This document shows positions 19,351 through 35,758 of a stretch of DNA of 64,000 nt, one piece after another. Both the position numbers and the translations under genes were made by a program. Below the pieces are notes generated by a model that worked only from the letters and a program-made list of their open reading frames with translations, did no database searches and was not told where the DNA came from. Source of the stretch: Archaeoglobus sulfaticallidus PM70-1 (lineage in GTDB: Archaea; Halobacteriota; Archaeoglobi; Archaeoglobales; Archaeoglobaceae); contig NC_021169.1 of assembly GCF_000385565.1 (NCBI RefSeq), forward strand, positions 1,656,571 through 1,720,570, in the 5' to 3' direction. Every line of letters starts with the position of its first letter. Within the stretch, counting starts at the first letter, position 1.

Positions 19351-20880
19351 TAAAGTTTAGGTTTTTATCTTCCCGTTGCTTGCAAGACTCCTTCCGCGAG
19401 GGAGGGGATACGCAAGGGGAGGTGGGCGGGTTGATACTCCTGTTCACTTTCACACCACTCTCAACATATATATCCTCAAACGCAGACGTATGCATGTGCA
19501 GGAAAACCGATGCATAGTCATTCAGCCCAGACTAACCAGGGAGCAGGAGATAGTCATCGGTAACCTCTGCTACAACGCTGGCAAGGTGTGGAATGTCGTC
19601 AACTACCACCTCATAAACGGAAATCTCAAGTTCAACGTTTACGATATCTACAGCAAACTCAGAAACAACTTCTTCGTCAGAAACATTCACTCAAGGTCAG
19701 CCCAGATCCTCATGGGTCAGCTCGTTGAGGGCTGGGAAAAGTATTTCGACTACCTGAAGAATCCTGAGAATTACAGTTCTCCCGTAAGAAGGCCAGGATT
19801 CATGGATAAGAGGAGGGCACATCATACCATTATCTACGACAAAACAGGTTTCAAGGTGCTCGGGAGTAAGATCAGGTTATCCATACAAAACAACTGAGAG
19901 AATACTTGAAAGAGGAGTACGGTTTTGACAAGAAGTACTTGTGGATTGATACTGGTATCGACTTAACTCAGTATGATGTAAGAAACATCCAGATCACACC
20001 TCTCAAGTACTCTGGCAGGATATTCTACCAGATGGGGATCATATATTCAGTGGAGCAAGAGCAAACCCAACAACCAGAAAAAGAGAGGTTGATGAGCATC
20101 GACTTCAACACCTCCAACTTTGCAGTCATCGTTATCGAGGACCACCCCACATCATACATCATCGATGGCAGAGGTCTAATGTCCCTTCTAAGAAAATACC
20201 TCAAGAAAATCTCCAGATTGCAGTCTAGAAGAGACAACCTGAAAGAGGGCTTACCACACCACAAACTCAACGAAAGAATTGCCAAGCTCTGGAAGCGGGT
20301 GAGAAATTTGCTGAGAGATTTCTCTCACCGTGTATCAAACCTGATTGTGGAGCTTGCCAGGAGACAGGTGACAAGGATCATCGTTGGGAATGTTCACTCA
20401 TCCAAGAACAAGGAAAGCAAGTTGCCCGACCTCGTAAACCAGATGTTCTCCCTGCTTCCTCACGGGAAGGTGGTAAGACACCTCAAGTACAAGTTTGGGG
20501 ATGTCGTAGAAGTAAGTGAGGAGTATACCTCTGGTGTGGACTCTGTCAAGTACGAGTACCCCTCAAGAGAGTACTACGAACCTCGAAAAAGGGTAAAGAG
20601 GTTCAAGTCCGTGATTGGTATCATCAACGCAGATGTCAACTCAGCAAGAAACATCCTGAAAAAGTACCTGTACGAGATTGGCCAGACGGATCATGTTTTG
20701 AAGGATATGGCGTCTGGCCTCAAACAAATAATCAGGTTAAGAGTCTTCCACAGGCTGAGAGGTAGCTCCGAATCTGCCGTGCTGGGACAGATAGGAGTAG
20801 TAAGGGGTTGTGTCCCCCTTGGGGTGGTAAGGGGCTTAGCTCAAACCCATCCCGAAACCCCTTGCGTGAGCGAGGGGTGA
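19351..20880 (+). mobile_element. IS605-type element with tnpB only (no tnpA)
   Basis: The left end (19351-19434) shares its sequence with that of the element at 59.5 kb and holds a hairpin CTCCTTCC-GCGA-GGGAGGGG (19388-19407). The right end has CCCCTTGC-GTGA-GCGAGGGG (20858-20877), built on the same plan. Between them lies a frameshifted tnpB. With no transposase of its own it would need TnpA from elsewhere. It sits between the receiver gene and the 3' end of the surface-protein operon. Confidence 0.75.
19490..20880 (+). pseudogene. tnpB: TnpB-family RNA-guided nuclease, frameshifted
   Basis: Two consecutive frames rebuild one protein of about 460 residues. The first ends at TGA 19895-19897 after KIRLSIQNN; the second continues as LREYLKEEYGFDKKYLW. 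Restoring one A in the AAAA run at 19887-19890 joins them. RuvC-I Asp is in LMSIDFNTSNFA and RuvC-III Asp in IGIINADVNSARNILK. The RuvC-II position reads RIIVGNVHSS without Glu, but a Glu occurs in VSEEYTSGVD. The Cys zinc finger is absent. It ends ETPCVSEG, codons that also form the right-end hairpin. Start at ATG 19490 (MHVQENRCIVIQ). Confidence 0.8.
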
Positions 20881-20881
20881 T

Positions 20882-21907
20882 TCACTTTCTGGATATTAGC
20901 TTTATTGAAACTATGGCTGCTATAATCAACAGTGTGTGAGTGAATCCAGGCACATACAGGACTGGGGTTGGGGTAGGTTCAGGAGTGGGTGTTGGAGTGG
21001 TTGGCACGGGTGTTGGGGTTGGTGTGGATGTTGGTGTTGGTTCAGGAGTGGATGTTGGGGTTGGGGTAGGTTCAGGAGTGGGTGTTGGAGTGGTTGGCAC
21101 GGGTGTTGGGGTTGGTGTGGATGTTGGTGTTGGTTCAGGAGTGGATGTTGGGGTTGGGGTTGGAGTAGTTGGAATTGATGTAGCTGGTGGTTTGGTTGGG
21201 GTTGGGGTAGGTTCAGGATTGGATGTTGGGGTTGGGGTTGGAGTAGTTGGCACAGGAGTTGGGGTTGGTGTGGATGTTGGTGTTGGTTCAGGGATTTCAC
21301 TGCTGCTTCCAACAACAAATGCCTTGAACGACTTATCGTCAGCAACAATGTGCAACTCCCCAATTGGTATTTTGGAGGTATCATACACCAACTCATATTT
21401 TCCACTGCTATCAAGAGCTATTGTGGATTTAACTGTGGCCTCGATAGTAACCTGAGTATAGTTAGTGTCTCCGAATATCTCTATATCGTAACTTCCCTTA
21501 GATATCCTCTGATTTATCGAGACTGTAGCATATCCTGCTGAATCTGCAACTTTCGGGCCACTTGTAGGTACATAGACAGGAAAAATGAAAAAAACTGTCT
21601 TGAGTCGCAGGTTATTAACCCTGTACGCTTTAACCGATACCGAATCAACATCCAACGGTATAGGAAAACTGTCTATTTTATAATCATATTTCCCAGAACT
21701 CGCAGATACTGTGAACTTACATGTGAGGCTCACCTGAACAACCTGATTGGGTGATCCTGTTACAGTTATTTTCTCAGCATCTCCTTTGACGATGTAGTAA
21801 TTACCACCAACAACTTTTGAGGGTGTAACTGTGATCTCTATTGCATTAGCTGCATTAGCTGCAACCAAAATAAAAAAAAGAGGAATGAAATATTTCAAGT
21901 ACTTCAA
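20882..21907 (-). CDS. Surface protein with Pro/Thr linker and PGF-CTERM-type anchor
   Basis: A 341-residue secreted protein: signal peptide ([16 protein letters not shown]), about 185 residues of beta-rich sequence of unknown family ([19 protein letters not shown] onward), a long Pro/Thr/Glu linker (about residues 205-315), then [20 protein letters not shown] and a basic end. The PGF plus helix plus basic tail matches the PGF-CTERM signal that archaeosortase A uses to attach proteins to lipid. It is the last gene of the surface operon, 17 bp after the preceding one. The linker would be heavily O-glycosylated if typical. Confidence 0.75.
20960..21290 (-). repeat. Pro/Thr-linker repeats, 93-bp higher-order unit
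   Basis: Short GGTGTTGG-type repeats encode the Pro-Thr-Pro linker. A larger block of 93 bp (31 codons) is repeated nearly exactly, starting at 20981 and 21074. Such DNA expands and contracts easily. Confidence 0.85.
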
Positions 21908-25452: not shown

Positions 25453-26268
25453 TTACCATATTTTCCTCCTATATATAACCATTGCTATTATTAAACTTAA
25501 TGCGAACAAATAAACCTGAAAACCCCCAATAAAATATTTTTCGGCAAATCCACCACTTTCTCCACTATTCTCCAATGTTGATGTAACCTTTTGCTCAGAA
25601 CTTTCAGGAATTATATTGGTTTTAGAATTAGAGTTATTTAAATTTGTTTCTACACTCTTTTCATGTTTGACCACGGTACTGTTGACTGTAACCTTGTTTT
25701 CGGAGTTATTTTTCTGAGTATTATCAGCATATCCACCAAAATTACTATTCTGCTCAACAGTAATTTCAGTCTTAGGCTTTGAGGATTGTTCTGGATGGAC
25801 ATTTTTCTGAATAGTTATATTATTCTCCATTGAGATATATTTGTACCCAGTACTAATCACATTCCCATTATAATCTCGCAATTCTAGAGCCGTTACATTC
25901 ACCCATTCATCTGAAAAACTACCCTCCTTACACTCAAAAACGAGTGAAAATAAAGTGGGATTGCGCAAAATTTGGGGGCTAACATTGTACAAAGACATCT
26001 TAATAATACCTACCTCTTTGTACTCATCGAATATCGCATAGATATAACCATTCAGAGTTTTGTCGTACTCTACGAATTCTACATGATTTGGATCATATTT
26101 GATAAGAAATGAGCCTAACGCAAGTTTTCCCGTAAAGTTCTCTAAAGACACACCAACGACTACATAACTATTCTCTACCTTCGTTTTTACATTTATCTGA
26201 CTCCCACTTACGAGATGAACAGCTAGTAAGCAAAAAAAAATTAGATAAAAAATTTTTCTCACATTCAA
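25453..26268 (-). CDS. Small membrane-anchored cohesin protein
   Basis: A 271-residue protein: signal peptide (IFYLIFFCLLAVHLVSG), one cohesin-like domain (about residues 24-150; VGVSLENFTGKLALGSFLIK, clearly parallel to the first domain of the next gene), an Asn/Ser/Thr-rich linker with many Asn-X-Ser/Thr sites (about 160-240), and a C-terminal helix GGFQVYLFALSLIIAMVIYR followed by RKIW. The GGF in place of PGF makes archaeosortase processing uncertain; it may simply be a transmembrane anchor. It lies 4 bp after the giant gene and 21 bp before the 1168-residue gene. Confidence 0.78.
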   Translation of the reverse strand: MNVRKIFYLIFFCLLAVHLVSGSQINVKTKVENSYVVVGVSLENFTGKLALGSFLIKYDPNHVEFVEYDKTLNGYIYAIFDEYKEVGIIKMSLYNVSPQILRNPTLFSLVFECKEGSFSDEWVNVTALELRDYNGNVISTGYKYISMENNITIQKNVHPEQSSKPKTEITVEQNSNFGGYADNTQKNNSENKVTVNSTVVKHEKSVETNLNNSNSKTNIIPESSEQKVTSTLENSGESGGFAEKYFIGGFQVYLFALSLIIAMVIYRRKIW

Positions 26269-26272
26269 CTAT

Positions 26273-29200
26273 CTAACCTCCCCAGAGATCCGCTGTATCT
26301 GGGTGGCGCTGTACCTGTATGCCCATGTTCTCGAGAGTCTTCTCGTAGTTGTATCTCAGCACAACCCATGAGTCCCAGTCAGTAACCCCTGAGTCGCCGT
26401 CTACATCACCGTAGACTGAACTCTTCGACCACATGTATGACGTATCTGGGTGGCGCTGTACCTGTATGCCCATGTTCTCGAGAGTCTTCTCGTAGTTGTA
26501 TCTCAGCACAACCCATGAGTCCCAGTCAGTAACCCCTGAGTCGCCGTCTACATCACCAAGCTTTCTACCCTCAAATGTCACATTAACGGTAGCACTCCCA
26601 TCCACATCAAGTATAAGCACTTTCTCGTTGCCAATGGTAACTTCCTCCGGCTGAACTGCCTGTCCGTTAACCTCCACAGTTACGCTGTCGTTGATCCACG
26701 CCCACAGATTGCCTCTCTCAAACTTAGGCATTGGTATTGCAATCTTTTTCTTTCCAACACCGCCCAGGCTTAGCATGTACTCCTTGCTGGCTTTAACTGA
26801 TGCATTTGGAGTTATCGACAGATCCTTGGACACGGACATGATTGTGTTCATGTCGTTGAACTCTGTAGCTTCTGCAAACACGACTTTTGGCTGTGTAAGC
26901 TCTTCTGGTTTGTATAGTGCAACCGAGTAGGTAACATTGTCACCTGGGTTCAGCGATACATCGAACTCAACTGGCACATATCCACTCTTGGAGATCCTTA
27001 TCTTGTGCGATCCCTCTATTGCCTGAATCTTGCTCGTCTTTGCAGCTCCATCAAGTGTAACACTCGCATCCAGTGCAGCTCCAGATGCGTTGAAGATCTT
27101 CAGACTTATGTTGCCATAGCCCTTGACATACTTCGTAGTATTGGCAATGTATTGGTTCTCCTCATTGTACATCGGGAACATCTTGACCTCCAAGGTTGTA
27201 TCTCCGGCACTCGGAGTTACATTAAAGCGGATATCTATGTAGCCCGTGCCCGGCACCTGATCCGGATAGAACTTGAGCGTGTTGTTGACAGAATCATACT
27301 CAAAGTTCTTGCCATCTATAAAGTTGTTCCATCCAAGAGCACTGTCAAACCACCTCGGAGTAACTGAACTATCAAAGTTCATGGTTCCCAGCGGAACAGT
27401 AATAACTGGAGACAGCAAAGCTGTGGCATTGTTGTTGTCAACCCTGACCGTCACCTCATACGACTTGCCTTCTACCATGTTGTCTGGAAGCGTTGGCAGG
27501 ATTGTTAACTCGTTCTGCTGCTGTACCTCCATTGATGCGATTTTTACAGTTCCACTTCCACTACCCACCTCAAGAATCTTGTGTCCTACATAATCCGTAC
27601 CGTAGATCAAGTCTGTCTGAGCGACCGTCTGCTCATTTTCAACTGAGACTATGACCAGACTGTCACCACTTACTCTCGTCACATTAACAGTATGAATCCT
27701 CCTGTTTGTATTCTCTGAAGTTCCGTTGCTGTTCACAGCATTTAACTCATCGGGTGTCAGCACTATAATGACTTTTGGATTTGTTGAATTAACTGTGACA
27801 TCCTTCACAACCGCTCCGTTGTCTATGTTTATCGTAACAGTGGTCTCATTCATCGGAACAACCTGCAACAGTGTCAGAGCATGTAAAGCAGCCTGAGTTG
27901 ATGCTGTGTATCCAAAGCTACCATGACCTCTGTAAACACTTACAAGATAATTCACCGCCTTAGCAATCGTTGCATTGTTGGAGTCCAGAACTGTGAAGTT
28001 CAAATTGTTCATACTTCTGCTCTCGTTGAGTGCTATTATTGCGTAAGCTGTAGCTTCACTCTTCCTGCCATAATTGTCCCACCACGGGCTTGCCAGTGGA
28101 TGGTGCCAGTAAACCTTGTCTGGAGCTGCAGAGTAAGTATTATTCAGCAACCATGCTACGCCCTTCTCAATTGCGTTCTCTATCTGGCTTCTGTTAACCT
28201 CGTCAGATGGTGTACCATACAGCTTAAGACCCCATACACTCAGTGCAGTTGAGATCGCATCCGATGGCTTGGCCGGATCGTCCTTGGCTCCCCACTGGTT
28301 CCATCCACCGTCTGAGTTCTGAACGCTCACAAGATACTTCGTCACGTTTGCCATCGTCTGATTGGCAACCTGTTTGGCTGAACTGTTTATCAAACCTTCA
28401 TTGATAAGCTGGTAGTGTGAAACCATGATCCATGATGTTACAGGCAAATGACCCTGGAAGAACCAGTGTGTACCCTGCCATGGCTCCCACCATATTGCCC
28501 CTGTTGTTTCATTCCTATTCGCCGCCTGAGCGAACCAATAGATTGTGTCGTTGAAGTTGAACTTACCCTTGTTCACACTCGAGCTGTACACATGGGTTGT
28601 TGTGAGATTGTTTTTGACAAGGTATCCAAACACATCGTCTTCCGCAACCCTTCCAAGTCCATAGCTTGCATACATTGTGTAGAACCCATCTCCCTTGGGG
28701 TTCCAGCCCCACATACTCCATGATCCATTGTCGTGCTGTCCTCTGACACCTCCTTTGGCAAGGCTTTGTACACCCATCATTATGGACTTATTGACTCTTG
28801 CTGAATCGTAAACATCCGGATATCCTTTCGTTCTGTAGTACCAGTCGGTATGCAGTGCACCAAGCAGCCTGCTTGTGGTCTGTTCAACACAACCGTAGGG
28901 ATACTGGACAAGATAATCAAGTCCTCTAAGCACTCTTCCCTCCTGTCCTGCAAGCACAACGAGAGATATTTTCTGGCTGAATGTTGTAACATTACTGGTG
29001 TCTATTGTCTTGAAGGTCATTTCATTTGATGTGTCGCTCAGTATGGTTGTATTGTAAGATCTCAGTTTGATGGTCGGCACCCAGACAATCAGCTTGTAAT
29101 CTGGAACCTGATCTACCGCTGAACTCGAGTTGATCTCATCAACCTTATCTCTGCCAGTAAATGTTATGTTGATCTCCTTGGTAGTTCCATTTCCGTACTC

Positions 29201-32200
29201 TCCAACTTTGACTGCTTTCAGTCTGAATCCAAACCAGTTCCACTTTCCGCCCCAGAGGAACCTCTCAATTTTGGCAGTATCGTTCCATCCAGTTCCATTC
29301 CACACCAGTAAACCATCAGGAACCTTTATGGTAGCGTTCACCTTACCCGGAGCAGTTACATTAACATAGCTACCTATCCAGAACTCCCTGCCCATCATCA
29401 CTTTCCGTGGATAGTACATCCTCCATGCATCGAGATGGAATTCTTTCAGTGTGATTGGGTGTGTTGTATACACATTGTTCGCAGTTATCGTATCACCAGA
29501 AACCTTTGCAACAATCCAATATTTTCCACCAAGATAACCTGTTGTATTCCAAGTTATTTTTGTCACATTCCAGCCATATCCTGTCAGTGCTGGCCCTTTC
29601 AATAATGTTTGCATAGTCTTGTTAAACAGAACTTCCTGCAAGCCATTCTCATTATACACTGAAACATTCAGCACATAGCTGTCGACCTCCGTTTTTCTGA
29701 GATTTCTGACTATAACATCGAAGTTAGCCTCATCGCCAACCACATAGTAGCTGTAGTAACCATAGATATAAGGTTGAATGTCGGTAACCTTTGACACAAC
29801 AACACTCGCATTCTCAGGAACAACTTTCATGTAGAGATTGTTTGTGGATATTAAGTTTCCAGTCAGGTTAAACCATGAGAATACATACTTGTCCGTCTTT
29901 ACCCTGAAAGTCAGATTTGCAAGCAGGAACTTACCGCTTGCGTTTATATTGTCACCAGTAATTCTGATCGCCCTGTATGGCCAGCCCCACATGTTGTAGT
30001 AGTTGAGGTTGTAATCTGAGGATGCTGAGACGAAGTAGAAGGCTTTGTAGTTATATATTAAATACAGATTGACACTATCAATCTCAAGCGAGGAGTTTAG
30101 CTCAATGCTGACATTAACAGTATCTCCCAGCATTGCAGAGGTTGTGTTTGGTATCACGGTGCCATTAACCTCAAGAATGGCTGCTGTAAGCATCTTTGTG
30201 AATGTGTTATTGCCCTCATTAAGTTCTGCCTCAACATCATCGGAGTCTGCAACCAGAGTTATGTTGTGTATTCCCGCAGGGAAGTTGTAGTTAACAGAGA
30301 TGTTCCAGAACTCCCCAGGCTTTAACAATGGTATTGAATACGTATTCACCAAGTTGTTGTTTATGTATAGCGATGCATTGGTCTGTTTTGCCCAGACATC
30401 TCCAATATTTACAACAACAATCTCAAAGTTTGCCGTTCCGGGGTTTATGAGGTCTGGTGCTAACACGATTGGTACAAGATCAGGCTGAGAAATGCAAAGT
30501 GTTCTCGTAGCATTGTTGTTGCCTTCATTAATCTCCTCAATATCATTATTTGAATCAACTGTTATGTTGAACGTGTAGCAACCGACATCGATGCTCGATG
30601 CATCCACAACTGCCGTATCACTCAGATTGAGGACTCCATCAGCATTCAGATCATTTAGCTCCTCCTGACCAATGCTGGTACTGTAGCTGTGGCCTTTGTA
30701 GGTGGCAGACAGATCGAATGTTTTGTCCACAGTTACACCAGGAATCAGATTTCTTATCTCAAATGTTGAATTCACCACTACAAAAGGATAGCTGTATGTT
30801 GTTCCACCATAGCTATCCCCTGCTTTGTGCTTTTTGATATACATCGTCTCGTTACCGAATTCGTCATAGACATGCAGTATACCTACTAGATCCGGTTTTG
30901 GTTTTATGACATAAACGTAGGCAATACTAAAGTTGTTCAACTCGTTCAGTTCATCGTTCGCATTTCCAGGATCCACAACAGCCTTGATTTCATGCAACCC
31001 CTCTGATGTGAAAGTGTAGCTGTAGCTGAACTTGGCTTCTGCATTAGGTGCCAGTTGCGGTACATTGAATGTCTGAACTCTCGTGCCACTCACATACAGA
31101 TCAAGGGTTGTTGAATTAGAGTTAGCAGAACCGATGTTCTTAACCGTGAGGTTGATTTGTAGCTGTTCGTTTATATTAAGATGGTCGACACACTCAATGC
31201 TGACAGTTAGATCCGGCTTGGGTGCAGGTGGTTGCTTAACTGTGATGACATATATCGATGAGTTGGGTTCATAGGGGTTCAGCACGGCAATTAAGTCCTT
31301 AGCACCATCTCCATTTACATCATACCCCATTCCATCATATGAGTAGAATGGTTGTATCAGCATAAACTGATCACTGCTGCTGACATTGAATATATAGGCC
31401 AGATTATCTCCCGTTAACACAATTCCACTCAGGTACTTGTCGGAATCGAAGCCCGCAAACTCTGTCACATTGAACAGGTCGCCCTTTCCGTCCCCATCAA
31501 AGTCCCCTAAGAAGATATAGAACACAGTATTTTTCTCCCAGATTATACTTCCATCAGCACCATTTACAGCCAGAGCGTAACCAACACCATAGTACGGTCT
31601 CACTACATAATCCAAGACACCATCTCCCGTGAGATCACCCACACAGAATAGATCTAATCCAGCATTGCTAACATAATCTCTTGATAAGTTCCAGAGTTCG
31701 TTTCCGTTGACTTCTAATTTGACAAGTTTGAAGTTACCAGTGTGATTCTTCCAGTCATAATTGTTTCCATAAACCACTATGCTTCCTTTCGCAACCGTAA
31801 CTTCCTCAAAGTCTCCAAGCTCATAGTTCCATTCAGCGTTTCCTGTGTTGTCCCTCACGTATACAGAACTCTTGTCATATGTGAGGAACTCACAGGCTCC
31901 ATCCAGATCGGCATCTAGACAGGGAGTTATTAGTTTTTGGGAGACATTAAACAGTTCATTTCCATTATTACCACCACTGAGGATTACCGTATATGGTCCA
32001 TCTAAGCTTACCAGAACATCCTCTATTCCATCACCATCCTTGTCGTCCACAGGTGAATAAACATTCGGCTCGTAATCGAAAGTCCTTGTCCAGAATGTTT
32101 CTCCACTGCTGCCGTTTATCGCTTCAAGTACATATTTTCCTCCCTGAGAATACTTCAGAAGGACATCCTTTCTCCCATTGTTGTCAAAATCGTATCCCCA

Positions 32201-33361
32201 TGAATAATACGAGAAATCATATCCCGCTATTTCGTTCTGGGCTGTGGTAACAATCATCACCGCATTCTTATCCAAATCTCCCTCACTTGCTGCATTACCT
32301 GATATAACATTTGGCCACTCTTCCACAAAGGATCTTACCCATAGAACGTTGTTGAACCCGAAGTCAATAGCCACCACATAGCCATTCACCACATAGGAGC
32401 TGAACCAGTCAGAATCCGTTGCTCCAACTATAATCTCCTTGAATCCGTCATTATCTACATCGGTTATCCCGTAGTTCCAGTGGGATATACTAAGACTTGA
32501 ATTAATGTAAGTTACAAGAAGTGATCCATCATTTCTCACAGCAAAGATTGCATCACCGCAGAATATGACAATATCCTTCAATCCATCTCCATTTAGGTCA
32601 TCTGCAGTAATATGACTTATTTCATGACTCGCCAGAGGAACATTCCACAACTCGCTGCCATCCACACCATTCAAAGCCACCACTTTGTAAACCATGCCAC
32701 CCTCATTAGGATCATAAGTGTGTATGGCAAAAACAAAGTCTTTTGCCCCATCTCCGTTTAGATCTTCAAGAACTGAAGTATCCCATACAGAAATATTGCT
32801 GTAGCTGGCATTCCAAAGCACTTTTGCATTTCCCGCAACATTGAAAAACGCTGTCTTATTAACCTTATTCACTGTAATTGAACCATTAACAACATTGTCA
32901 AAATAGCTCGTGTTGAAATCCTGACCACTGTATTCTGCCATAGTTATATTAAGGTCGCTTGTTCCTGCATCTATTCCCCTGAAATATATCCTAGCTATTT
33001 CCGTTGGCTGAACAATCGTTGGATAATTCGACAGCACCATCACAACCCTGATACTTCCATTTTTGTTGTCAATTGCGCTGAGGTTAAATGCAACAAAGGT
33101 GGAGTTCTTTAGCCCTGTAGCCACTACAACAGTAGGATCAAATGTTAGCTCCAAATCTATGCCTGTAGCGTTGGTTATATTTCCTACCATTACTGGTATC
33201 TCAGCAGTATCACCCCAGTCAATCGTTGCAGATCCCACAGAGATATCTGATGCACTGGATGTCCCTAATACAATGAAAACCAGAAGAATAGTGGCAATTG
33301 ATAACTTTTCTATGGTAATTGCTCTGCGAAGAACATCTCTATTTTTTTCATGTGATTTCAT
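26273..33361 (-). CDS. Giant surface protein: cohesins, FG-GAP-like repeats, CARDB, thioester domain, PEGA, dockerin-like repeats
   Basis: 2362 residues. In order: signal helix; cohesin-like domain (about 38-165); FG-GAP-like repeats with DxNxDGxxD loops (about 195-705, e.g. DLNGDGAKD, DFDGDGKGD); three CARDB-type domains (from about 710, 822 and 959); a second cohesin-like domain (about 1058-1195); beta domains resembling alpha-2-macroglobulin; a thioester-type domain with YPYGCVEQTTS (Cys1491, Gln1494) and an alpha/alpha repeat region to about 1800; a PEGA domain (about 2075-2150); and two copies of a 49-residue dockerin-like repeat (DVDGDSGVTDWDSW) at the C-terminus. No membrane anchor is seen, so it is probably held by its dockerin-like end binding a neighbour's cohesin. 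Domain borders are judged by eye. Confidence 0.82.
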   Translation of the reverse strand: MKSHEKNRDVLRRAITIEKLSIATILLVFIVLGTSSASDISVGSATIDWGDTAEIPVMVGNITNATGIDLELTFDPTVVVATGLKNSTFVAFNLSAIDNKNGSIRVVMVLSNYPTIVQPTEIARIYFRGIDAGTSDLNITMAEYSGQDFNTSYFDNVVNGSITVNKVNKTAFFNVAGNAKVLWNASYSNISVWDTSVLEDLNGDGAKDFVFAIHTYDPNEGGMVYKVVALNGVDGSELWNVPLASHEISHITADDLNGDGLKDIVIFCGDAIFAVRNDGSLLVTYINSSLSISHWNYGITDVDNDGFKEIIVGATDSDWFSSYVVNGYVVAIDFGFNNVLWVRSFVEEWPNVISGNAASEGDLDKNAVMIVTTAQNEIAGYDFSYYSWGYDFDNNGRKDVLLKYSQGGKYVLEAINGSSGETFWTRTFDYEPNVYSPVDDKDGDGIEDVLVSLDGPYTVILSGGNNGNELFNVSQKLITPCLDADLDGACEFLTYDKSSVYVRDNTGNAEWNYELGDFEEVTVAKGSIVVYGNNYDWKNHTGNFKLVKLEVNGNELWNLSRDYVSNAGLDLFCVGDLTGDGVLDYVVRPYYGVGYALAVNGADGSIIWEKNTVFYIFLGDFDGDGKGDLFNVTEFAGFDSDKYLSGIVLTGDNLAYIFNVSSSDQFMLIQPFYSYDGMGYDVNGDGAKDLIAVLNPYEPNSSIYVITVKQPPAPKPDLTVSIECVDHLNINEQLQINLTVKNIGSANSNSTTLDLYVSGTRVQTFNVPQLAPNAEAKFSYSYTFTSEGLHEIKAVVDPGNANDELNELNNFSIAYVYVIKPKPDLVGILHVYDEFGNETMYIKKHKAGDSYGGTTYSYPFVVVNSTFEIRNLIPGVTVDKTFDLSATYKGHSYSTSIGQEELNDLNADGVLNLSDTAVVDASSIDVGCYTFNITVDSNNDIEEINEGNNNATRTLCISQPDLVPIVLAPDLINPGTANFEIVVVNIGDVWAKQTNASLYINNNLVNTYSIPLLKPGEFWNISVNYNFPAGIHNITLVADSDDVEAELNEGNNTFTKMLTAAILEVNGTVIPNTTSAMLGDTVNVSIELNSSLEIDSVNLYLIYNYKAFYFVSASSDYNLNYYNMWGWPYRAIRITGDNINASGKFLLANLTFRVKTDKYVFSWFNLTGNLISTNNLYMKVVPENASVVVSKVTDIQPYIYGYYSYYVVGDEANFDVIVRNLRKTEVDSYVLNVSVYNENGLQEVLFNKTMQTLLKGPALTGYGWNVTKITWNTTGYLGGKYWIVAKVSGDTITANNVYTTHPITLKEFHLDAWRMYYPRKVMMGREFWIGSYVNVTAPGKVNATIKVPDGLLVWNGTGWNDTAKIERFLWGGKWNWFGFRLKAVKVGEYGNGTTKEINITFTGRDKVDEINSSSAVDQVPDYKLIVWVPTIKLRSYNTTILSDTSNEMTFKTIDTSNVTTFSQKISLVVLAGQEGRVLRGLDYLVQYPYGCVEQTTSRLLGALHTDWYYRTKGYPDVYDSARVNKSIMMGVQSLAKGGVRGQHDNGSWSMWGWNPKGDGFYTMYASYGLGRVAEDDVFGYLVKNNLTTTHVYSSSVNKGKFNFNDTIYWFAQAANRNETTGAIWWEPWQGTHWFFQGHLPVTSWIMVSHYQLINEGLINSSAKQVANQTMANVTKYLVSVQNSDGGWNQWGAKDDPAKPSDAISTALSVWGLKLYGTPSDEVNRSQIENAIEKGVAWLLNNTYSAAPDKVYWHHPLASPWWDNYGRKSEATAYAIIALNESRSMNNLNFTVLDSNNATIAKAVNYLVSVYRGHGSFGYTASTQAALHALTLLQVVPMNETTVTINIDNGAVVKDVTVNSTNPKVIIVLTPDELNAVNSNGTSENTNRRIHTVNVTRVSGDSLVIVSVENEQTVAQTDLIYGTDYVGHKILEVGSGSGTVKIASMEVQQQNELTILPTLPDNMVEGKSYEVTVRVDNNNATALLSPVITVPLGTMNFDSSVTPRWFDSALGWNNFIDGKNFEYDSVNNTLKFYPDQVPGTGYIDIRFNVTPSAGDTTLEVKMFPMYNEENQYIANTTKYVKGYGNISLKIFNASGAALDASVTLDGAAKTSKIQAIEGSHKIRISKSGYVPVEFDVSLNPGDNVTYSVALYKPEELTQPKVVFAEATEFNDMNTIMSVSKDLSITPNASVKASKEYMLSLGGVGKKKIAIPMPKFERGNLWAWINDSVTVEVNGQAVQPEEVTIGNEKVLILDVDGSATVNVTFEGRKLGDVDGDSGVTDWDSWVVLRYNYEKTLENMGIQVQRHPDTSYMWSKSSVYGDVDGDSGVTDWDSWVVLRYNYEKTLENMGIQVQRHPDTADLWGG
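26295..26557 (-). repeat. Exact 116-bp duplication in the dockerin-like region
   Basis: 116 bp at 26295-26410 recur without a single change at 26442-26557, a period of 147 bp (49 codons). Each copy encodes a Ca-binding DVDGDSGVTDWD loop. Identity at synonymous sites points to recent duplication or gene conversion. Confidence 0.95.
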
Positions 33362-33586: not shown

Positions 33587-35758
33587 TTAATTGTTACTTG
33601 ATTGACCTGTAACCCCACCTAACTCAAATCTTTCATTAAGAGTGTACCACAGCTTCGCAAGGTCACCGATATCTATCCTACCGTTTCTGTTGAGGTCTCC
33701 GTTGTAGTAGTGAATGCCATCGGCTTTAACCTTGCCAACAAGAAGATATGCCATGTTGGTTATATCCGCTATATCCACATTCCCGTCCAGGTTTATATCT
33801 CCCTTCACAGTGCTGTTCGTTACCGCCCAGAATGCATTGACCATCCCGAAGCCATACACATTATCTGGCCCGGCATCTCCAAGATCAATTGATGCGTTTT
33901 TGAGTATGTTTCTGATTTCTTCAGGTGTCAGCTTGGGATTAACCTGGAGCATCAATGCTATCACTCCACTGATGTGGGGTGTCGCCATCGAGGTTCCGCT
34001 CATGTAACAGTAGCCCCAGAGACATGTTGATACAATATTATACCCGGGAGCAACGAAATCCGGCTTAATTGTAATGTTGCTTCCAAAGCCTACAGGACCT
34101 CTTGAGCTGAAATCAGCTATCCTGGCACTGCTGTCTATGGCTCCAATAGTTATGGCAGAGTAGGATGTTCCCGGCGAGTTTATGGTTCTGAAACCATATG
34201 ATCCGCTATTCCCAGCAGCAATGACAACCGCTGTTCCATTTCTCACGATGGCATCAACAGCCTTATCCGCCAAGCTCGTTCCGTCACTCTCGTATCCTAC
34301 ATAAACCTTAACATAATATGGTATAACCCCTTCTTCTACAATGCTCCATCCGCTCGCATTCCATCCAGTGCTACCCTTTTCGACATCATCGTAAAATCCT
34401 ATTTCAGGAATCTCTATGTCATCGATATACCAGCCCGGATAAACAACACTGGAATCGGTAACGTATCTGAATACTAGCGTTATGTTGTTTCCAGCAAACT
34501 TGCTCAGATTGATCTCCTCAACATATGGCTTGGAATAGCCTGTGTATTCTGCGAGCACATAAGTTGTGTTGTTGCACACAACCTCGACATAACCATAATC
34601 CCATCCTTCATCAATGTCATAGTATGTTTTAAACCTGAGTGTCGCTTTTGTAATGTTCCTAAGGTCAAAATCTCTGCTAAGAGTGTTATCCAAATTGTTC
34701 CCATTTCCGGAATACCAGATGTAGTTTTCTGTATTTTTAAGAGATTCAACTTTTAAAGTCCAGTTTCCGTTTATCAAAGGTTTATCATCGTTGTAGAACC
34801 CATAAACCATATCATTCGTCTGAGTCCAGTTAATTTCAATTCCCTGAACTTCATTACCATTCGGATCGTATAGGGTGAAGCTCAGATTATTTAGGTCAGA
34901 CGACCAAATATTGAGTGTTATGAAAGCTGGCTTGTAAGCTTCCTCAAACAGATGAGGCTCAACGCTGATGTTGTACTCCTCAACCTCACTTGCTGAGAGT
35001 GATGACGAGTAGTAGAACCACTCCATTTGCAAAACTCCACCACTATAGCTTATAACATCCGCACCATTACTGTAAGCCCACTGAAGTCCCTCTATAACCC
35101 GAGAAACCGGAGCCGATCCACTGCTATCAAAAACCTTAACACCCATCAGATAAGCATCCGGAGCCACACCCGTTATTGTTCCGCTTGCCCCATTTCCAGC
35201 CACAGTCCCGGCCACATGAGTTCCGTGACCGTTATCATCATAGGGATAATTTTTGTTGTTCACAAAATCCTTCCATGCTATTATCCTATCTGAAAAATCT
35301 TTATGTGGATAGATCCCGGTATCAACAACAGCAACCTTGATTCCACCACCATCTATGCCAAGACCCCAGACCTTTTCGGCATCCATGAAATCAACGCCCC
35401 ATGCGATGTTTGATGTGGCCTGTATGCTGGACTGTATATCGAAAGCATTGCTACCAGTAACATCGTTTGTATTCACTTCGAAGTCGGGCAGTCTAACAAT
35501 ATAATCAGGTACCACCCTAAAACCTTTCATCTTTAACTCGTCAATAACTTCAGGAGACGCATTTATGGCAACACCATTGACCAGCCATAGGTCCCTTTTC
35601 CCCTTAACTGGTATTTCCGACAGTATCGTGTGACCCTTCATTTTAGCTTTAGGATTTTTATCGAGTAATACAATAACATTCTCCCCCAAGGCTGAAGGAA
35701 AGAGAATAAAAACTATCAGCACAATTGCCAGAGCTTTTACAAAAATTCTACACTCCAT
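33587..35758 (-). CDS. Secreted subtilisin-like serine protease with dockerin domain
   Basis: 723 residues: signal peptide (ALAIVLIVFILFPSALG), a propeptide of about 100 residues, then an S8 peptidase with catalytic Asp146 (VAVVDTGIYP), His178 (NGHGTHVAGTVAG), the oxyanion Asn in IAAGNSGS and Ser590 (MSGTSMATPHISG). A beta-rich insert of about 220 residues splits the catalytic domain between His and Ser. The C-terminus is a dockerin with two Ca loops, GDINLDGNVDIADI and GDLNRNGRIDIGDL. It is the first gene of the surface cluster, 225 bp ahead of the giant gene. It could mature or trim partners after docking; that is inference. Confidence 0.9.
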   Translation of the reverse strand: MECRIFVKALAIVLIVFILFPSALGENVIVLLDKNPKAKMKGHTILSEIPVKGKRDLWLVNGVAINASPEVIDELKMKGFRVVPDYIVRLPDFEVNTNDVTGSNAFDIQSSIQATSNIAWGVDFMDAEKVWGLGIDGGGIKVAVVDTGIYPHKDFSDRIIAWKDFVNNKNYPYDDNGHGTHVAGTVAGNGASGTITGVAPDAYLMGVKVFDSSGSAPVSRVIEGLQWAYSNGADVISYSGGVLQMEWFYYSSSLSASEVEEYNISVEPHLFEEAYKPAFITLNIWSSDLNNLSFTLYDPNGNEVQGIEINWTQTNDMVYGFYNDDKPLINGNWTLKVESLKNTENYIWYSGNGNNLDNTLSRDFDLRNITKATLRFKTYYDIDEGWDYGYVEVVCNNTTYVLAEYTGYSKPYVEEINLSKFAGNNITLVFRYVTDSSVVYPGWYIDDIEIPEIGFYDDVEKGSTGWNASGWSIVEEGVIPYYVKVYVGYESDGTSLADKAVDAIVRNGTAVVIAAGNSGSYGFRTINSPGTSYSAITIGAIDSSARIADFSSRGPVGFGSNITIKPDFVAPGYNIVSTCLWGYCYMSGTSMATPHISGVIALMLQVNPKLTPEEIRNILKNASIDLGDAGPDNVYGFGMVNAFWAVTNSTVKGDINLDGNVDIADITNMAYLLVGKVKADGIHYYNGDLNRNGRIDIGDLAKLWYTLNERFELGGVTGQSSNN

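Follow-up and report, generated by a model that had tools for sequence, protein, structure and literature searches.

We analyzed a 64,000-nucleotide stretch of DNA (the window) from Archaeoglobus sulfaticallidus PM70-1, whose genome is a single contig of 2,076,931 bp, and focused on a large minus-strand gene that encodes a protein with a complement-like thioester domain (TED; hereafter the TED protein) and lies between the genes for a subtilase and for two surface proteins. Its open reading frame (ORF), which contains DYLVQYPYGCVEQTTSRLL, specifies, in order, a signal or transmembrane segment, cohesin-like, FG-GAP, CARDB, MG7, CUB, TED, CUB, MG8, PEGA-like and dockerin-like regions. The genes and the motif concerned are located as follows:

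33587..35758, minus strand: S8 subtilase with D/H/S motifs, a MAM-like insert and a C-terminal dockerin
26273..33361, minus strand: TED protein, 2362 aa
28880..28891, minus strand: CVEQ thioester motif, residues 1491-1494, placed by codon positions and alignment
25453..26268, minus strand: small cohesin protein, 271 aa, with a C-terminal membrane segment
21925..25431, minus strand: anchor protein, 1168 aa, with a cohesin-like N-terminus, an Ig-like middle and a PGF-CTERM

A preliminary description of this DNA had pointed to a C-x-E-Q arrangement at Cys1491-Gln1494 and read it as a thioester domain. The codons confirm the motif, YPYGC1491VEQ1494, and the domain is strongly supported by Pfam, by sequence matches to alpha-2-macroglobulin (A2M) and by the modelled fold described below. 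Composition predicts only 0.008 CxEQ occurrences in this protein; Pfam assigned PF07678 (TED_complement) to residues 1478-1830 (E 6.5e-6, 25.9 bits against a cut-off of 22), along with CARDB and FG-GAP domains elsewhere in the protein; and phmmer matched Salmonella and E. coli A2M at residues 1475-1574 (E 3e-4). The motif is therefore more than a chance occurrence. No other protein of the genome matched PF07678, and C1491 is the sole cysteine within residues 1285-2080. Together, there is strong support for placing the TED protein in the thioester-containing A2M/complement superfamily, the thioester bond itself being predicted.

An AlphaFold2 model of residues 1285-2080 (mean pLDDT 77.6, pTM 0.81), for which the input alignment had 35 rows drawn from the window and related loci, showed a beta domain, half of a CUB-like sheet, about 12 helices, the second half of the sheet and a final beta domain. 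This is the MG7-CUB-TED-CUB-MG8 architecture, with an alpha/alpha toroid inserted in the CUB domain between MG7 and MG8, and the helices together with the Foldseek matches bear out the toroid that had been predicted from the letters alone. The regions were delimited as follows:

29129..29434, minus strand: MG7-like beta domain, residues about 1310-1411 (model, whole-length Foldseek matches)
28949..29095, minus strand: first half of the CUB-like sheet, residues about 1423-1471 (model, Foldseek)
27869..28948, minus strand: TED helical region, residues about 1472-1831 (PF07678 at 1478-1830, model helices)
27620..27844, minus strand: second half of the CUB-like sheet, residues about 1840-1914 (model, Foldseek)
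27485..27607, minus strand: CUB-MG8 linker, residues about 1919-1959 (pLDDT below 50, haloarchaeal chain break there)
27128..27463, minus strand: MG8-like cap domain, residues about 1967-2078, including M2064-Y2065 (model, Foldseek, alignment)

Foldseek matched the model to native C3, C5, CD109, TEP1 and E. coli A2M with E values from 1e-22 to 1e-25, and the matches to native C3, C5, TEP1 and E. coli A2M span its length. Superposition gave a TM of up to 0.55 on native C3 against about 0.25-0.28 on C3b. Support for the predicted adjacency of Cys1491 and Gln1494 comes from this fold match and from no other source.

The residues expected to protect a thioester are also in place. In Salmonella A2M the thioester pocket is formed by two TED tyrosines and a Met-Tyr pair of the C-terminal MG domain (PMC4498604), and alignment with bacterial A2Ms located all four in the TED protein as Y1487, Y1489, M2064 and Y2065. 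When we aligned 35 sequences, comprising the window and related loci, Y1487 and Y2065 were present in 35/35, M2064 in 34/35 and Y1489 in 32/35. The archaeal loci retain CxEQ; in front of the MG8 tyrosine they have Met or Leu wherever this pattern was matched, three loci giving no match. Haloarchaeal loci carry the motif variants YPYWCVEQ (L149, L168, L170-L172) and YPHACVEQ (L165-L167, L169), in which the Gly before the Cys is replaced.

The preliminary description had suspected a link to the neighbouring subtilase, and this suspicion is now strongly supported: the only S8 gene of the genome adjoins, upstream, its only TED gene, the pairing recurs in related archaea and one haloarchaeal locus fuses the two. 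The D/H/S triad motifs were complete in 14 of 14 subtilases checked. A borderline match to PF00404 (22.8 bits against a cut-off of 22.9, rising above it to 25.2 bits in the genome search) marks the subtilase dockerin:

33650..33805, minus strand: subtilase dockerin, residues 652-703

Among 29 other genomes of the family we found no close homolog of this subtilase, except for pieces of the MAM region in one.

The order S8, TED, small cohesin-like and anchor recurs in relatives. Scoring S8 by its His and Ser motifs in 26 unique loci, the window included, we found an S8 gene directly upstream of TED in 20; at L155 the contig ends within the upstream gene, and at L158 the S8 gene lies two genes upstream. 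Since the loci are related, these pairings are not independent events. At L141 (11895-14654, minus strand) the usual place of the subtilase is taken by a cohesin-containing protein with a subtilase-type dockerin and no S8 domain. Haloarchaea present a TED ORF, followed directly by a separate secreted protein that joins an MG8-like cap to a dockerin (L149, L150, L164, L167-L173) and then by an anchored cohesin-like protein; the gene-level break in the chain coincides with the position of the CUB-MG8 linker. A dockerin-bearing S8 protein is encoded nearby in five haloarchaeal loci, all of one genus, and the S8-TED fusion is found at L150. The distribution of the module is patchy across relatives. 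None of the family members among the phylum genomes drawn matched the profile for TEDs of this type over its full length, and two genomes of the family (G033 and G160, at L049 and L050) carry a different, canonical GCGEQ TED with a much stronger PF07678 match. An empty insertion site was sought beside hisG in congeners, where the hisG neighbours proved not to be syntenic. In methanogens a DUF1616 gene (PF07760; e.g. L056, 17751-18734) is frequently found close to the module, and similar ...HLWVN proteins occur in haloarchaea.

The docking modules, and the variable cassette described below, are additions to the preliminary picture. In the window, those of the TED protein are:

32858..33256, minus strand: N-terminal cohesin-like domain, residues 36-168
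26294..26557, minus strand: C-terminal dockerin-like region, with two copies of a 39-aa unit at residues 2269-2307 and 2318-2356

For the N-terminus, the family profile hits cohesins of the PDB, A. fulgidus 2xdh among them, and PF00963 was matched by the TED N-termini of 8 of 12 family members; the window N-terminus searched alone gave no Pfam match. Likewise, the family profile of the C-terminus matches PDB dockerins, and the window tail displays two DxDxD loops with no Pfam dockerin match, its two 39-aa units being identical at 116 of 117 nt. Both domains of the window protein are divergent, and their assignment as a putative cohesin and dockerin rests on the family profiles. Residues 1060-1190 may hold another cohesin-like stretch, spotted by visual reading alone, which we do not claim. 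For the small cohesin protein, the AlphaFold2 model (pLDDT 79) is a jelly-roll whose best PDB matches are nearly all cohesins, and its match to PF00963 (E 4.9e-4) falls under the cut-off. Its gene has 33.5% G+C, against 43-44% in its neighbours.

In the methanogen relatives, the TED dockerin, the small cohesin and the anchor cohesin make up a low-G+C cassette of hypervariable parts that co-vary; the subtilase dockerin and the TED, by contrast, are conserved. Over 23 pairs of loci with at least 75% TED identity, the TED itself averaged 79% identity, the S8 dockerin 81% and the anchor body 69%, whereas the averages were 48% in the TED dockerin, 59% in the small cohesin and 44% in the anchor cohesin. 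Partial Mantel tests, which control for TED and anchor divergence, ignore other shared ancestry and use fixed offsets as domain limits, linked the TED dockerin to two partners at the permutation floor, namely the anchor cohesin (r 0.57) and the small cohesin (r 0.43). We rejected linkage as the whole cause of this: for the stretch that immediately follows the anchor cohesin, correlation was weak both with the TED dockerin (r 0.18) and with the anchor cohesin adjoining it (r 0.10), against r 0.57 between the TED dockerin and the anchor cohesin, so that linkage alone does not suffice. The TED dockerin and the TED protein's own cohesin do not co-vary (r -0.16, p 0.88), so self-polymerisation through these two domains is unlikely in the relatives. 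Within the TED dockerins, whose halves were selected visually among pattern hits and confirmed to occur in the proteins, the two halves agree at 73% within proteins and 31% between them (permutation p 2e-4); the S8 dockerins showed no such agreement. Compared with the rest of the gene, or with the TED gene, G+C was lower in the anchor cohesin at 25 of 25 loci, in the TED dockerin at 24 and in the small cohesin at 23; in the window this holds for the anchor cohesin and the small cohesin, not for the TED dockerin. Between species of these relatives, the plugs and sockets that anchor the TED protein change in concert, in the manner of a recognition code.

We propose that the TED protein is the core of a cell-surface, protease-armed device for covalent tagging, resembling C3 and the TEPs rather than an A2M cage, and give this reading a probability of roughly 45%. 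The TED protein is probably held at the surface by dockerin and cohesin domains: the subtilase dockerin would bind the N-terminal cohesin of the TED protein, the dockerin-like tail of the latter would bind the small membrane cohesin, the anchor cohesin or both, and these pairs would tether protein and protease to the cell. The MG8 cap would shield the thioester until a cut, most simply in the flexible CUB-MG8 linker, our candidate cleavage site (residues about 1919-1959), frees the TED, which could then acylate a nearby nucleophile on an attacking protease, on the surface of a virus or competitor, or on a neighbouring cell. The variable docking pair between TED protein and anchor would serve to match each system to the cell that bears it. 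By sequence, neither Pfam nor PDB gave a match to MG1-6 N-terminal of MG7, where the cohesin-like, FG-GAP and CARDB regions lie. Because MG1-6 and a bait region are not recognisable, an A2M cage is unlikely and a tagger is favoured; the best fit is a docked protease which, as in C3, removes the cap from a shielded thioester.

Several results weigh against this proposal. The upstream S8 gene is absent from four of the 26 loci (L141, L146, L147, L162), and 6 of 12 haloarchaeal loci have no S8 gene nearby. In the linkage control, the correlation between the S8 dockerin and the TED cohesin was not separable from linkage; and the cassette is contiguous, so exchange in blocks probably contributes to its co-variation. 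Moreover, no bait region was recognised in the sequence of the TED protein, although the CUB-MG8 linker could serve as one.

The best-surviving alternative is that the TED protein inhibits proteases as A2M does, covalently capturing foreign proteases or restraining the docked subtilase once cut. The analogy with protease trapping drawn in the preliminary description stands as far as the C-terminal half (MG7-CUB-TED-MG8) and the protecting pocket are concerned, which are those of bacterial A2M, a protease inhibitor; it is weaker beyond these, as the MG1-6 ring and bait region that form the A2M trap are not recognisable. The commonest neighbour is always a protease, and dockerin-carrying serpins in some cellulosomes are a precedent for docked inhibitors, but a constantly docked cognate protease makes a poor target, and it is not evident what a variable tether would contribute to inhibition. 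On balance we regard such a guard as unlikely. Somewhat less probable still is a role in envelope assembly or adhesion, in which the subtilase would mature a TED protein that cross-links surface proteins or covalently attaches the cell to surfaces or partner cells. A large, modular extracellular protein with membrane-anchored partners would suit such a role, as would the FG-GAP and CARDB domains, which are typical of adhesion, and the variable cassettes that adhesins commonly have; however, conservation of the shielding pocket is explained no better than by tagging, and the patchiness of the module argues against a basic envelope component. That CxEQ is a relic in a merely structural domain, as the YPYWCVEQ and YPHACVEQ variants might suggest, is very improbable given that the relatives read retain C, E and Q along with pocket residues in a different domain, and that C1491 is the lone cysteine of its region.

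Covalent tagging by the docked, protease-armed TED protein admits a bolder version, which we consider doubtful: a polymorphic complement-like system in which a convertase-like subtilase is docked on a thioester protein tethered by a hypervariable, co-evolving lock-and-key of dockerin and cohesin, which lineages would exchange as a low-G+C cassette, so that tagging would be confined to self or would distinguish self from non-self.

Beyond the anchor gene lies another co-directional gene, whose membership in the module is uncertain and for which no homolog was found at the corresponding position in other loci:

20882..21907, minus strand: Pro/Thr-rich surface protein, 341 aa

On the 3' side of the module, two consecutive ORFs occupy 19376-20880 on the plus strand, the second being OrfB_IS605 (TnpB-like); this gene appears to be split and could be the sign of a mobile element. 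Other dockerin or cohesin genes of the genome, near 75201, 1322194, 1750904 and 1975277, could swap partners with the module. A promoter and terminator scan with a sigma-70 model, unsuited to archaea, found nothing over shuffled sequences.

Archaeal relatives of A2M have been described before. PMC8416519 describes 27 archaeal CxEQ TED proteins in 24 genomes, some near endoproteases, so the archaeal CxEQ motif is not new; as a secreted archaeal protein with a TED and CxEQ, the TED protein belongs with these homologs. They share with it the signal peptide and neighbourhoods of surface proteins, sometimes with endoproteases, but have differing domain organisations, and the main text of that paper mentions neither cohesin nor dockerin and describes no S8-TED-cohesin order, fusion or co-varying cassette. 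We found no description of the module, the fusion or the cassette in the literature searched, which covers few subscription papers, and the conserved S8-TED-docking context seems to be new. Bacterial A2Ms (E. coli ECAM, Salmonella SaA2M) have in common with the TED protein the MG7-CUB-TED-MG8 fold, YPYGCxEQ and the Tyr/Tyr/Met/Tyr pocket; unlike them, it has no recognisable MG1-6 or bait region, and has cohesin-like, FG-GAP, CARDB and dockerin-like parts and a protease partner. Complement C3 and C5 and insect TEP1 match its fold over the same half, native C3 superposing better than C3b on the model, and activation by a dedicated protease, as in complement, is proposed by analogy; the TED protein differs from them in having no anaphylatoxin domain or MG1-6, and the protease here is a subtilase, held by dockerin and cohesin in the proposed model, whereas that of complement is a chymotrypsin-like convertase. 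Non-cellulosomal archaeal proteins (A. fulgidus 2xdh; ANME, PMC9012536) likewise bear cohesin and dockerin modules on surface proteins, but here these are tied to a thioester protein and its protease and show a co-varying cassette. The VARTIG loci of Thermococcales (arCOG07710, a large Ig-domain protein with a hypervariable C-terminus) resemble the present loci in having variable C-termini, a likeness drawn by description only.

Animal innate immunity relies heavily on thioester proteins of the complement type, whose relatives in prokaryotes have been little studied outside Gram-negative bacteria. The module offers a concrete model, amenable to experiment, of covalent tagging under protease control outside animals, its variable docking pairs are a ready system for studying how specificity between proteins diversifies, and its components, being thermophilic, are expected to be stable in structural studies.
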